Origin: Bacteroidota bacterium
GTDB taxonomy: Bacteria > Bacteroidota > Bacteroidia > JABEUT01
DNA length: 39,573 nt
Reading direction: 5' to 3'
Assembly: GCA_013288205.1 (NCBI GenBank)
Contig: JABDCH010000016.1
Coordinates: forward strand, 1 to 39,573
Both the position numbers and the translations under genes were made by a program. Under the pieces are notes generated by a model. The model did not search any database, was not told where the DNA came from, and saw only the letters and a program-made list of their open reading frames with translations. Below, piece after piece: positions 24,252-30,168 of this stretch. Position 1 is the first letter of the stretch. Each line of letters opens with the position of its first letter.

Positions 24252-24266
24252 GTAGCCCGTAGGGGA
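24252..24266. repeat. att repeat, integrase-gene side of the element
   Basis: GTAGCCCGTAGGGGA is identical to the 3' end of the tRNA-Glu gene at 30154-30168 and is in the same orientation. It marks the far end of the integrated element. Flanks differ at once on both sides, so the identity is exactly 15 bp. Confidence 0.85.
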
Positions 24267-24384: not shown

Positions 24385-24408
24385 AGTGTCCCCTAAAGTG
24401 TCCCCTAT
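24385..24408 (+). repeat. Tandem 12-bp repeats (integrase arm-site-like), integrase end
   Basis: Two abutting copies, AGTGTCCCCTAA (24385-24396) and AGTGTCCCCTAT (24397-24408). The same pair occurs near the other end at 30077-30100. The core att repeat contains the related TAGGGGAC (24260-24267) in reverse, as often seen for tyrosine-recombinase sites. Confidence 0.7.
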
Positions 24409-24448: not shown

Positions 24449-25678
24449 ATGGCAAAGGTGAATTTTTATTTGAAAGAACCAACTGGAAAGAGCGAAACCC
24501 TTATTTATTTGTTCTTTCATTACAAGGGAGCAAGGTTAAAATATTCCACAGGTGAAACAATTTTGCCGAAATTTTGGAATGAAGAAAACCAAAGAGCCAG
24601 TATATCGCTAAAGGGTAGTTCTGAAATAAACGGACTGATAGACCGAATAGAGGAAGGTATAAAGAAAATTTACAGGGAAGGGCTAACTTATGGAAAGGAT
24701 ATTACAAACGTATATCTGAAAGAGAAACTTGACGAGGAATTAAATGATACAGGCAAAGCAGTAAAGACCTTTTTTGATTATTTTAATGAGTTTACAGAGG
24801 TGCAAAAATCATTTAAGACTTACCGAACTATTCAAAAATACAATACGCTGAAAAGTCATTTATTGCAATTTCAAAGTAAAAAAGTCTATAACTTATCCTT
24901 TGAAAAAATTGATATACGATTTAACGAACTCTTTACTGCCTTTTGCATTACTGATTTAAACCTTGTAAATAATTCCATTGCAAAGTACATAAAGACTTTA
25001 AAAACCTTTCTACATTGGGCAACTGATAGAGGGTATAATAAAAGCCTTTCATTTGTTAAGTTCAAAGCAAAGGAACGGGACGCTGATATTATTTACTTAA
25101 CCGAAGATGAACTTTTTACTCTTTACAATAAAGACTTATCTAAAAACATAGCCTTAGACAAGGTACGGGACACTTTTTGTTTCGGATGTTTTACAGGTTT
25201 ACGATACTCCGATATTACAAGGGTAACAAAAGAAAATGTGAAAGGGGGTGAAATAAATTTCATATCCGAAAAGACTACCGAAAAACTAAGTATTCCGCTT
25301 AATGAATATTCAGAAGCAATATTGAAAAAGTATAATTACTCTTTGCCGGTTATATCTAACCAAAAGACAAACGAACATTTGAAAGAGTTAGGAAAACTTG
25401 CGGAACTTGATGAACCTATAATGATTACACGCTTTAAAGGGGCGGAAGAAATACAGGTAACTAAGCCAAAATATGAGTTTATAGGTACACATACGGCACG
25501 TAGAACCTTTGTAACTCTTTCGCTTGAAAAAGGAATGAGACCGGAAATAGTAATGAGCATTACCGGACACAAAGAATATAATACCTTCAAAAAGTATATT
25601 AAGATAACTAACAAGGTAAAAAACATTGATATGAAAAGGATTTGGAATAAAGAAAGCTCTTTATTGGCAGTAATTTAA
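24449..25678 (+). CDS. Tyrosine recombinase / site-specific integrase
   Basis: A 409-residue phage-type integrase of the Bacteroidota kind. The N-terminal arm-binding domain spans about 1-95 (VNFYLKEPTGKSETLIYLFF), the SAM-like core-binding domain about 105-205, and the catalytic domain about 215-395. The active-site set is complete: Arg252 (FTGLRYSD), a Lys in the beta-hairpin (about 275), His348 and Arg351 (THTARRTF), His374 (ITGHKEYNTF) and the nucleophile Tyr383. It lies next to the att repeat and presumably recombines attP with the tRNA-Glu 3' end. A strong Bacteroidota-type promoter box precedes it. The C terminus is complete. Confidence 0.95.
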   Translation: MAKVNFYLKEPTGKSETLIYLFFHYKGARLKYSTGETILPKFWNEENQRASISLKGSSEINGLIDRIEEGIKKIYREGLTYGKDITNVYLKEKLDEELNDTGKAVKTFFDYFNEFTEVQKSFKTYRTIQKYNTLKSHLLQFQSKKVYNLSFEKIDIRFNELFTAFCITDLNLVNNSIAKYIKTLKTFLHWATDRGYNKSLSFVKFKAKERDADIIYLTEDELFTLYNKDLSKNIALDKVRDTFCFGCFTGLRYSDITRVTKENVKGGEINFISEKTTEKLSIPLNEYSEAILKKYNYSLPVISNQKTNEHLKELGKLAELDEPIMITRFKGAEEIQVTKPKYEFIGTHTARRTFVTLSLEKGMRPEIVMSITGHKEYNTFKKYIKITNKVKNIDMKRIWNKESSLLAVI

Positions 25679-27130: not shown

Positions 27131-27421
27131 ATGGAAAATCAATTAATAGTTACTCTCAATGTTAATGACTTAAAAGAACTCATTAGCGAAGGCGTTACCA
27201 ATGCCCTTTCAAAAACCCCACAGCCTAAAAAAGAAGACGATACTTTGCTAAAACGCATAGACGTAGCAAAACTATTTTCTGTTTCACTGGTAACAGTTTC
27301 ACAATGGCAGAAAGACGGCGTACTACCATACCATAGAATTAAGAGCCGTATATTTTTTAAGCGATGCGAAGTATTACAGGCAATGGAACTAAAACCAAAG
27401 TATAAACGTAGTAGAAAGTGA
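27131..27421 (+). CDS. Helix-turn-helix (excisionase-like) DNA-binding protein
   Basis: A 96-residue protein with a MerR-like/HTH_17 domain at about 35-85: LLKRIDVAKLFSVSLVTVSQWQKDGVLPYHRIKSRIFFKRCEVLQAM. This is the excisionase/helix_turn_helix pattern found in Bacteroidota conjugative and mobilisable elements, where such proteins act as recombination directionality factors or as regulators. The basic tail (KYKRSRK) fits DNA binding. The location between integrase and RepL-like gene fits either role. An imperfect inverted repeat at 27103-27130 may be its own operator. Confidence 0.82.
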   Translation: MENQLIVTLNVNDLKELISEGVTNALSKTPQPKKEDDTLLKRIDVAKLFSVSLVTVSQWQKDGVLPYHRIKSRIFFKRCEVLQAMELKPKYKRSRK

Positions 27422-27545: not shown

Positions 27546-28127
27546 TTGAGAGCGAATAAAACACAGGTAAATGCAATAAAGGAAACACTAAATGAAGTGT
27601 GGAATGTTGCTGATGTGAAAATATTTGTAAGCCCGAAAAAGACCTATAAATATGAATCCTTTACAATGTTTTTTCAAGCAGCTAATCTTTGGTTGACAAA
27701 AACACTAACTCCAATTTCTTGTAAGCTATTGATATATTTTAATTCCATTACAGCCTATGGAAATAGAGTAGATAAAGATATTTCAGATATATGCGGGGAT
27801 TTAAAATATAGTAGGATGCAACTTAATAGGGGAATTAAGGAATTGGAATCGTATGATATTATCCGTATTCTTAAATTAGATAGCGACAAACGAAGGAATA
27901 TTTATATACTTAATCCTTATCAAAGTTGGAAGGGTGCGCCAATTGAAAGAGCAATTATAAATAAAATATTCCCCGACAATCAATTACAATTTGATTTTGG
28001 AGGCACAAAAAAACCCCTGCATAGGCAATTAAGACCAAACGTGAATTTTTTAGAGCAATCAAAAACGAGGGAAAATAATGAGAACGCTAATAAGACCTCT
28101 AATGAAAACAAAGTCAAAGATGTTTAG
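27546..28127 (+). CDS. RepL-like winged-helix replication/maintenance protein
   Basis: A 193-residue protein with a winged helix-turn-helix like RepL-family plasmid initiators: ANLWLTKTLTPISCKLLIYFNSITAYGNRVDKDISDICGDLKYSRMQLNRGIKELESYDIIRIL is the HTH core (about 48-115), and RNIYILNPYQSWKG is the typical wing and tail. The C terminus is Asn/Lys-rich and looks disordered. Translation starts at TTG 27546; no ATG lies nearer than about residue 40, which would cut the N-terminal strand. Such proteins occur in integrated elements and may replicate the excised form. It is preceded by a 24-bp palindrome and overlaps the next gene by 8 bp. Confidence 0.72.
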   Translation: MRANKTQVNAIKETLNEVWNVADVKIFVSPKKTYKYESFTMFFQAANLWLTKTLTPISCKLLIYFNSITAYGNRVDKDISDICGDLKYSRMQLNRGIKELESYDIIRILKLDSDKRRNIYILNPYQSWKGAPIERAIINKIFPDNQLQFDFGGTKKPLHRQLRPNVNFLEQSKTRENNENANKTSNENKVKDV

Positions 28128-28374
28128 TGAGCGGATTAAATTTTACGCCGATACTGAAAGGGAACGGAATAAATTATTTACATGGGAGCTTCCGAATGGT
28201 ATACTAAGTATTCAGGATGCTTTAAAACGCTTTTTTGATAAGCGTTGGAATATTAGGGCGGCTTGGTATGAAAAGATTGATGTAAGCACAGGGGAAATAA
28301 AAGAGAATACAAAAATTGACGTTAAACGGGAATTAGATGCGTATATTAACAACGGACTTTCCCATAAACAGTAA
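28120..28374 (+). CDS. Small hypothetical protein, translationally coupled to the RepL-like gene
   Basis: An 84-residue soluble protein (MFSERIKFYADTERERNKLFTWELPNG...). I start at ATG 28120, whose ATGTTTAG overlaps the RepL-like stop (28125-28127), the usual coupling arrangement. The frame stays open upstream to 28078 (98 residues), but that would force a 50-bp overlap. The composition is charged with a conserved-looking core SIQDALKRFFDKRWNIRAAWYEKIDVSTGEI. No domain is recognised. Its position suggests a role in replication or copy control of the element. Confidence 0.55.
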   Translation: MFSERIKFYADTERERNKLFTWELPNGILSIQDALKRFFDKRWNIRAAWYEKIDVSTGEIKENTKIDVKRELDAYINNGLSHKQ

Positions 28375-28810: not shown

Positions 28811-28818
28811 TACATTTG
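28811..28818 (+). promoter_or_regulatory. -7 box (TACATTTG) upstream of the structured RNA/DNA region
   Basis: TACATTTG matches TAnnTTTG. Initiation would be near 28825, about 60 nt before the 28885-28998 hairpin. No TTG -33 element is obvious. Confidence 0.35.
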
Positions 28819-28884
28819 TAACTCTTAAAACAATAGAATGAAATAAACATAAAGGATAACTAACATATCAGCGTTAGCTTTCTT

Positions 28885-28998
28885 GTAATCGGAAAATTAG
28901 ACACTTCCCGCTTTTTCACAAGGATAAGTTATACGCTCACGCCAAAGGCGTGGGCTTTACTTATTTGTGAATAGGGTTTGTCTAATTACCCCGATTAC
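28885..28998 (+). ncRNA. Extended 114-nt hairpin: candidate structured RNA or single-strand DNA site
   Basis: Nested complementary blocks are, from outside in: GTAATCGG with CCGATTAC (8 bp), AATTAGACA with TGTCTAATT (9 bp), CCC with GGG, TTCACAA with TTGTGAA (7 bp), ATAAGT with ACTTAT (6 bp) and GCTCACGCC with GGCGTGGGC (9 bp, one G-U) around an AAA loop. Together that is about 42 pairs interrupted by small loops. A -7-like box lies upstream and a T-rich stretch (29021-29028) downstream. It could be an ncRNA, an oriT/ssDNA origin hairpin, or both; sequence alone does not decide. The element has no known RNA family that I recognise. Confidence 0.5.
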
Positions 28999-29155
28999 GG
29001 TAGGATATTGTCCACGCCTGATTTTTTATATAAACCTCCTGTTTGGGACAATAACGGAGAAATAAAATCAAATCACCATGTAACAAACCCCTAAAAGTGT
29101 TCGCCGAAAAACTTTAAGAGTAGGCAAATTTCTAATATTTTAAAAATCAAACAAA

Positions 29156-29386
29156 ATGAAAAAGTTAATTCTATCTATTGCAGTTATAGCCGTATTATTA
29201 AGCACAACCAGTTGTGGAACAATTTTGGGCGGTAAAATTGGAGAGTGCCAAAAAACAAAATCACCTAAAGGACAGCCTGGAAGACAGGTAAGAGGATGGT
29301 GTTTAGTTTTTGATGGCCCCTGGGGATTAATAATAGATGCTATTACAGGTGGGCTATATATGCCTTGCGATGGCCCCAAAAAATAA
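29156..29386 (+). CDS. Small cysteine-containing lipoprotein (cargo)
   Basis: A 76-residue predicted lipoprotein: MKKLILSIAVIAVLLSTTSC with lipobox STTSC (Cys20). The mature part CGTILGGKIGECQK...GWCLVFDGPWGLIIDAITGGLYMPCDGPKK has three more cysteines. The CGTI start with a later DxPWxLIxDxI-type segment recalls the small YceK/YidQ-like lipoproteins, but length and cysteines differ, so this is only a suggestion. It ends in a clean rho-independent terminator, so it is probably monocistronic. An ATGTAACA motif lies 71 bp upstream. Confidence 0.7.
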   Translation: MKKLILSIAVIAVLLSTTSCGTILGGKIGECQKTKSPKGQPGRQVRGWCLVFDGPWGLIIDAITGGLYMPCDGPKK

Positions 29387-30153: not shown

Positions 30154-30168
30154 GTAGCCCGTAGGGGA
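30154..30168. repeat. att repeat, tRNA-Glu side of the element
   Basis: GTAGCCCGTAGGGGA is the reverse complement of the tRNA-Glu 3' acceptor and T-arm end. It is the second copy of the repeat at 24252-24266. The tRNA stays complete after integration. Confidence 0.85.

Follow-up and report, generated by a model that had tools for sequence, protein, structure and literature searches.

A probable new family of pseudoknotted leader RNAs placed before unrelated genes in Bacteroidota

Most known riboswitches control genes that share a pathway. In the ZTP and cobalamin riboswitches, the loop of a 3' hairpin pairs back into the aptamer. Integron attC sites carry terminal RYYYAAC and GTTRRRY boxes and are found in arrays. 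In addition, Rfam holds several structured, cis-regulatory families from Bacteroidetes, including DUF805b (RF02914), Flavo-1 (RF01705), Bacteroidales-1 (RF01693) and others, some of which are situated upstream of genes. Thousands of palindromic candidates from Bacteroidetes are presented in PMC8040213, among them HMP2_4078, which is 109 bp long and lies near integrase and D5_N domains. PMC9723704, on Flavobacterium psychrophilum, describes structured 5' UTRs without Rfam hits, a median UTR of 24 bp and no Shine-Dalgarno sequences.

Here we describe an element from a window of 39,573 nucleotides (the whole stretch of DNA that was analysed) which probably represents a new and widespread family of leader RNAs, approximately 200 nt in length, that are pseudoknotted and act in cis on Bacteroidota mRNAs; this assessment comes from sequence comparison. 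The leader is like the ZTP and cobalamin riboswitches in its position, in having the loop of a 3' hairpin form a pseudoknot with the 5' domain, and in the nearby start codon. Unlike them, it has no sequence match in Rfam and the genes behind it share no pathway. A search of the whole window against Rfam 15 at the gathering cut-off left the leader without a match; between 28780 and 29170, at E values up to 5, there were weak, overlapping matches to unrelated families only, and at 12 homologous loci, at E values up to 1, the leader was matched by no family. Readings of the element as a retron, 6S RNA, omega RNA or IS605 element were dropped, as Rfam gave no match to any of them. The Bacteroidetes families named above resemble the leader in phylum, in being structured and, for some, in lying upstream of genes; RF02914 differs in that it matches a separate, 33-nt motif behind the leader and not the leader itself. 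Compared by description, HMP2_4078 of PMC8040213 is similar in phylum, in the size of the main hairpin and in its mobile-element neighbours, and might be the leader's central hairpin; unlike for the leader, no pseudoknot, promoter or ATG spacing is described for the candidates in the passages covered. Novelty of the family therefore means absence from Rfam 15. The structured UTRs of PMC9723704, compared by description, are long leaders like the present RNA, but those named in the passages covered precede pheA, hisG, ftsY, acsA, alaS and rimP. No description of the leader RNA was found in the parts of the open-licence PMC literature that were covered.

The leader as modelled spans 28856..29060 on the forward strand, which is also the strand of the leader features below. 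It comprises 203 model positions and scores 197.3 and 191.8 bits with covariance models R1 and R2, in which the model alignment itself included the window copy. A large nested hairpin had been proposed in the preliminary description, and it stands: the main hairpin at 28884-28999 holds 42 pairs. The predicted RNA fold of 28870-29060 has an energy of -64.3 kcal/mol versus -42.1 +/- 4.4 for shuffles (z -5.0, with 0 of 200 shuffles as low), and z is -5.9 for 28862-29062, which includes the outer helix P1. It had also been stated that no coding frame explains the complementarity, and zero ORFs of at least 80 aa overlap 28885-29053. The opposite strand of the hairpin region also folds (z -5.6), as the bottom strand of any long palindrome would, and folding alone therefore cannot separate RNA from DNA or pick the strand.

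The fold is made up of five helices, supported by covariation. P1 pairs strand a (28867..28873) with strand d (29015..29022), the latter having one bulged base in the window copy. P2 (28884..28892 with 28991-28999) and P3 (28895..28903 with 28979-28987) follow, and then P4, the 5' strand of which has a two-base bulge (28915..28929 with 28959-28971). P5 is the conserved apical hairpin, consisting of strands b and c (28935..28955). A U-run at 29022..29027 lies directly behind P1. Next is hairpin P6 (29036..29059), in which CTCC at 29036-29039 pairs with GGAG at 29056-29059; P6-like stems are seen in copies elsewhere. The second, 8-bp stem of the preliminary description (29006-29013 with 29046-29053) is present in the sequence, and its 3' strand lies in the loop of P6. 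As P1 crosses this stem, it is a pseudoknot, here called K, and not the plain stem that had been supposed; it appears in the centroid of the 28870-29060 fold and in neither minimum-energy structure. P1, P6 and the homologues had been missed.

A DNA search revealed two further copies in the window's own genome; across the genus, 7 of 11 genomes gave matches, 13 in all with the window copy counted, and one of these (L009) is a DUF805b-like motif only and another (L013) matches part of the query. The order-level genome set consisted of the same 11 genomes. A covariance model built from a 12-copy alignment found 23 copies in 9 of the 11, again including the window's own. In the class, the first covariance model had a match at E<=0.01 in 91 of 395 genomes. 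The second matched 39 of 395 genomes sampled from the phylum (E<=0.001), including one that does not belong to the class, 34 of the 61 genomes of one further genus, and 0 of 146 genomes of a control phylum. A strict DNA pattern retrieved 117 stretches from a named genome collection, and 78 of the 80 listed have a model match. By record name, 78 of these 80 are presumably Bacteroidota; the two others are a Lachnospiraceae MAG, perhaps mis-binned, which has a model match, and a Hyalangium record, which has none. Among 86 pattern loci, the model match is absent at two, Hyalangium (L182) and L194. The plasmid search yielded zero matches to the leader, and the phage search a single match of 44 nt at 86%. 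Six viral contigs (L250-L255) carry the leader, with a model match in all six.

Layout counts are based on 169 distinct copies, after identical ones were merged. Seven of 107 loci (L099, L113, L118, L121, L125, L128 and L131) were left out before counting, as were L045 and L048, which fell below the score cut; class matches were fetched mainly from the upper part of the list and most of the lower ones were left out. In four of the viral contigs (L251-L254), and in L183 and L165, the leader precedes a conserved small protein of 71-74 aa. In L251 and L253, integrase-like and terminase-like genes, named by eye, adjoin this unit, and the leader is therefore probably carried by temperate phages or prophages.

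Homologues retain pairing through compensatory changes, the result that the preliminary description had looked for in a covariance comparison and the kind of conserved secondary structure associated with a cis-acting mRNA leader. In a MAFFT alignment of 12 copies including the window's, which was not fitted to structure, 16 of the 42 consensus-fold pairs have a double change. With pseudoknots included, 91.1% of the 674 cells of this alignment are paired versus 83.3% in shuffles, and there are 63 double-change cells versus 22. In an alignment of 98 copies guided by the second model, 92.2% of the 4277 cells are paired versus 67.8% shuffled, with 1017 double-change cells versus 293.5 +/- 16.8 and double changes in 39 of 45 pairs; this alignment was fitted to P1-P5 and leans towards the modelled helices, which the 12-copy alignment does not. 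P1 was assessed on an alignment made without it (A3, which still holds three antisense artefacts). Here, 85.8% of cells are paired versus 77.9%, with 46 double-change cells versus 20, while on two weaker measures 156 and 47 of 500 shuffles did at least as well. There are more G-U than A-C cells, 419 versus 130, or 211 versus 116 without four wobble-rich pairs, which argues that the folding strand is that of the transcript's sense. The structured RNA that was one of the candidates first put forward is supported.

The covariation of K is mixed. Within the genus, 98.9% of its cells are paired and 4 of 8 pairs are doubly changed. In alignment A4, which beyond the genus is poor in the K region, 72.2% of cells are paired versus 66.4%, 469 of 500 shuffles reach its count of doubly changed pairs, and sliding K by +1 column gives 52 double-change cells versus 37 unslid. 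Support for K came from an alignment-free permutation test: runs of at least five pairs occur in 86 of 166 copies versus a mean of 55.5 (maximum 64 in 100 permutations), and in 24 of 56 versus 7.9 (maximum 16) when copies with the consensus strand are removed. Taken singly, no more than 26 of 87 sequences reach significance, and K seems to be absent from some copies. The best stems around the 3' strand of K, that is P6, score 6.37 versus 5.48 in shuffles. A pairing of the 3' tail GGGGA with the P3/P4 internal loop (75% of cells, double changes in 2 of 5 pairs) was dropped in favour of P6, because distant copies support P6 better.

Four strands of the leader share a CACGC/GCGTG core. Strand c (GCGTGGG, the 3' side of P5) is complementary to strand d (CCCACGC, comprising K plus P1), and the c:d pairing, considered as the alternative state of a possible attenuator or switch, would exclude P1, K and P5. 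It covaries, with 97.4% of 663 cells paired and 10 double-change cells versus 1.1 (for example in L055, L070, L080 and L105). Forcing it costs a median of 14.4 kcal/mol in nested folding, so that c:d may be a rare state, a pairing in trans or a by-product of the shared core sequence.

Upstream of the leader, the -7-like box TACATTTG (TAnnTTTG) at 28811..28818 on the forward strand probably drives transcription, as was proposed at the outset, and its position is conserved among copies. Among the 169 copies, 71 have TAnnTTTG at a distance of 30-70 nt before the model start, versus 62 of 2250 background windows (2.8%); the exact box is missing from this interval in the other 98. At the 3' side, at least five T within 13 nt behind CACGC are found in 113 of 169 copies (background 2.8%). 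An ORF of at least 45 aa starts between -35 and +90 nt from the model end in 149 of 169 copies, and in 93 of these 149 it does so +8 to +18 nt past the model; the remaining 20 copies lack such an ORF nearby. An ATG in any frame lies +5 to +24 nt past the model in 120 of 165 copies versus 33.8% of background. A leader placed between promoter and start codon is therefore a feature of some copies and not of all. Within one genus (g58), the copies cease to resemble one another at the DNA level once the start codon is reached: matches at four other places extend at most over positions 1418-1751 of the query, in which the ATG is at 1720. In the window, an ATG lies 18 nt past the model, where the start codon is usually found, but it is closed at once (ATG-TAA, 29078..29083, forward strand), and a lipoprotein-like ORF starts 96 nt past the model. 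Another genome (L006/L029) has the same order as the window, with ATG-CCA-TAA at the usual start.

The element could instead be a trans-acting small RNA in its own right, with its 3' end at the U-run that follows P1, and the downstream gene would then be reached by read-through only. The frequency of the U-run, the closing of the whole domain by P1 and the several copies lacking K are in keeping with this. Such an RNA would not, however, need an ATG within 5-24 nt or a K that reaches past the U-run, and a terminator pattern scan, which allows loops of 3-8 only, did not list P1 with the U-run. We regard this explanation as unlikely, and a cis-acting leader as likely on these comparisons.

The genes behind the leader are diverse. 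Among 96 downstream proteins (98 ORFs minus L088 and L093, which have non-ATG starts), there is no shared family: in the 25 commonest families of each collection, Pfam has at most 3 members and NCBIfam and PADLOC at most 4, the PADLOC families (25 of 98 shown) being methyltransferases with up to 4. What recurs is the type of N-terminus, since 105 of 149 downstream ORFs begin like exported or membrane proteins versus 140 of 484 neighbours (Fisher p 2e-19); the rule is crude, using hydrophobicity only, and the contrast is inflated because background ORFs begin at the first ATG, so that their starts are less certain and their score lower. LamG-type proteins recur by eye, and Pfam Laminin_G_3 is found in 2 of the 96. 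In 4 of 6 regions examined, SusC-like and then SusD-like genes, recognised by eye, lie 0.2-0.55 kb behind the leader, and NCBIfam SusC has one match among the 96. At L256, L258, L259 and L260, SusC/SusD-like pairs follow the leader after an unusually long gap. In the window, the first longer ORF is the lipoprotein-like one (29156..29386, forward strand, 76 aa), for which no family was found in Pfam, PADLOC or NCBIfam. Counting against the leader reading are the genes without a common pathway, the copies that lack the exact box or a close ORF, the unevenness of K, the window ATG that is closed at once and the distance of the SusC-like genes. As unrelated genes share a leader that matches no catalogued RNA family, they probably share an RNA-based control that has gone unrecognised.

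A DUF805b-like motif (RF02914) follows the leader at 29094..29126 on the forward strand, with 34.0 bits, below the gathering score of 35.6, and an E value of 4.6e-8. Similar motifs, also below the gathering score, are found in L006 (1774-1806, 31.5 bits) and L009 (1500-1531, 29.9 bits). All three precede a small lipoprotein-like gene, and in the window and L006 the motif is stacked behind the leader.

The window copy resides in a 5.9-kb integrated element that has, at either boundary, a 15-bp repeat from the 3' end of tRNA-Glu (24252-24266 and 30154-30168), with near-identical 21-bp arms, TGTCCCCTAAANTGTCCCCTA, at 24387 and 30079. The element has genes for a tyrosine recombinase (integrase, 24449-25678), an excisionase-like protein (27131-27421) and a weakly Rep-like protein (27546-28127), the 3' end of the last being overlapped by an ORF in a different frame (28078-28374). 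Six genomes of the genus contain 20 copies, and 4 of these have a tyrosine recombinase within 7 kb on the same contig. Mobile elements thus carry the leader and do not explain it.

A further alternative is a portable promoter-leader module or a gene-cassette recombination site, with the fold serving DNA exchange before new accessory genes. The unrelated cargo, the patchy distribution, the several copies per genome, the viral contigs and the tRNA-Glu element are what such a module would produce, as are the core common to four strands and the two tandem leader-gene units on an Alistipes contig (L206, 1322-2285, ORFs of 61 and 73 aa). Like an integron attC site, the leader is a folded element just before accessory genes; unlike attC, it folds on the transcript strand and has a promoter in front. 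An attC identity was rejected: the RYYYAAC/GTTRRRY boxes were not seen on the consensus by eye, and no arrays were found among the class matches listed, the sole tandem case being the two units in a row of L206. The conserved promoter and ATG spacing and the G-U preference on the transcript strand also speak for RNA, and we consider exchange of DNA through the fold improbable, a little more so than the small RNA. A replication site of the window's mobile element, or the oriT or single-strand origin suggested initially together with a folded recombination site, is very improbable despite the integrase, excisionase-like and weakly Rep-like genes, since copies follow a promoter and precede the start codon of genes unrelated to one another, 16 of the 20 have no tyrosine-recombinase match within 7 kb on the same contig (short contigs may hide some) and no relaxase family was found among ten window proteins scanned.

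For the cis-acting leader, comparison of the copies shows P1-P5, a pseudoknot K that joins the strand beside P1 to the P6 loop, a fold on the sense strand, a promoter box before and an ATG behind. P1-P5, with its conserved internal loops, would sense one signal, a ligand or protein, and its folding would decide whether K and P6 form. As these probably fall inside the region that the 30S subunit covers around the start codon, initiation of translation would be altered when they form. Early termination of transcription at the U-run behind P1 is another possibility, as an alternative or in addition. We rate a translational switch at slightly under an even chance and attenuation at the U-run as a lesser possibility; the two are not exclusive. 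One signal would thus govern a large number of unrelated genes, the majority of which encode exported or membrane proteins.

Taken further, the leader could be part of a phylum-wide, portable promoter-leader, repeatedly placed before accessory genes that are unrelated but encode exported and membrane proteins, and conveying one common signal via the start-codon pseudoknot. This is a tentative proposal, and somewhat doubtful, which would cover lipoproteins, LamG and SusC-like proteins, and phage and mobile-element genes. A strongly covarying RNA that is matched in 91 of 395 sampled class genomes and has no entry in Rfam would make a leader family of considerable size beyond those catalogued, in front of genes with no common pathway. 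In Bacteroidota, translation is initiated without Shine-Dalgarno sequences, and the leader would provide a handle on how the translation start of surface proteins is controlled in these bacteria.
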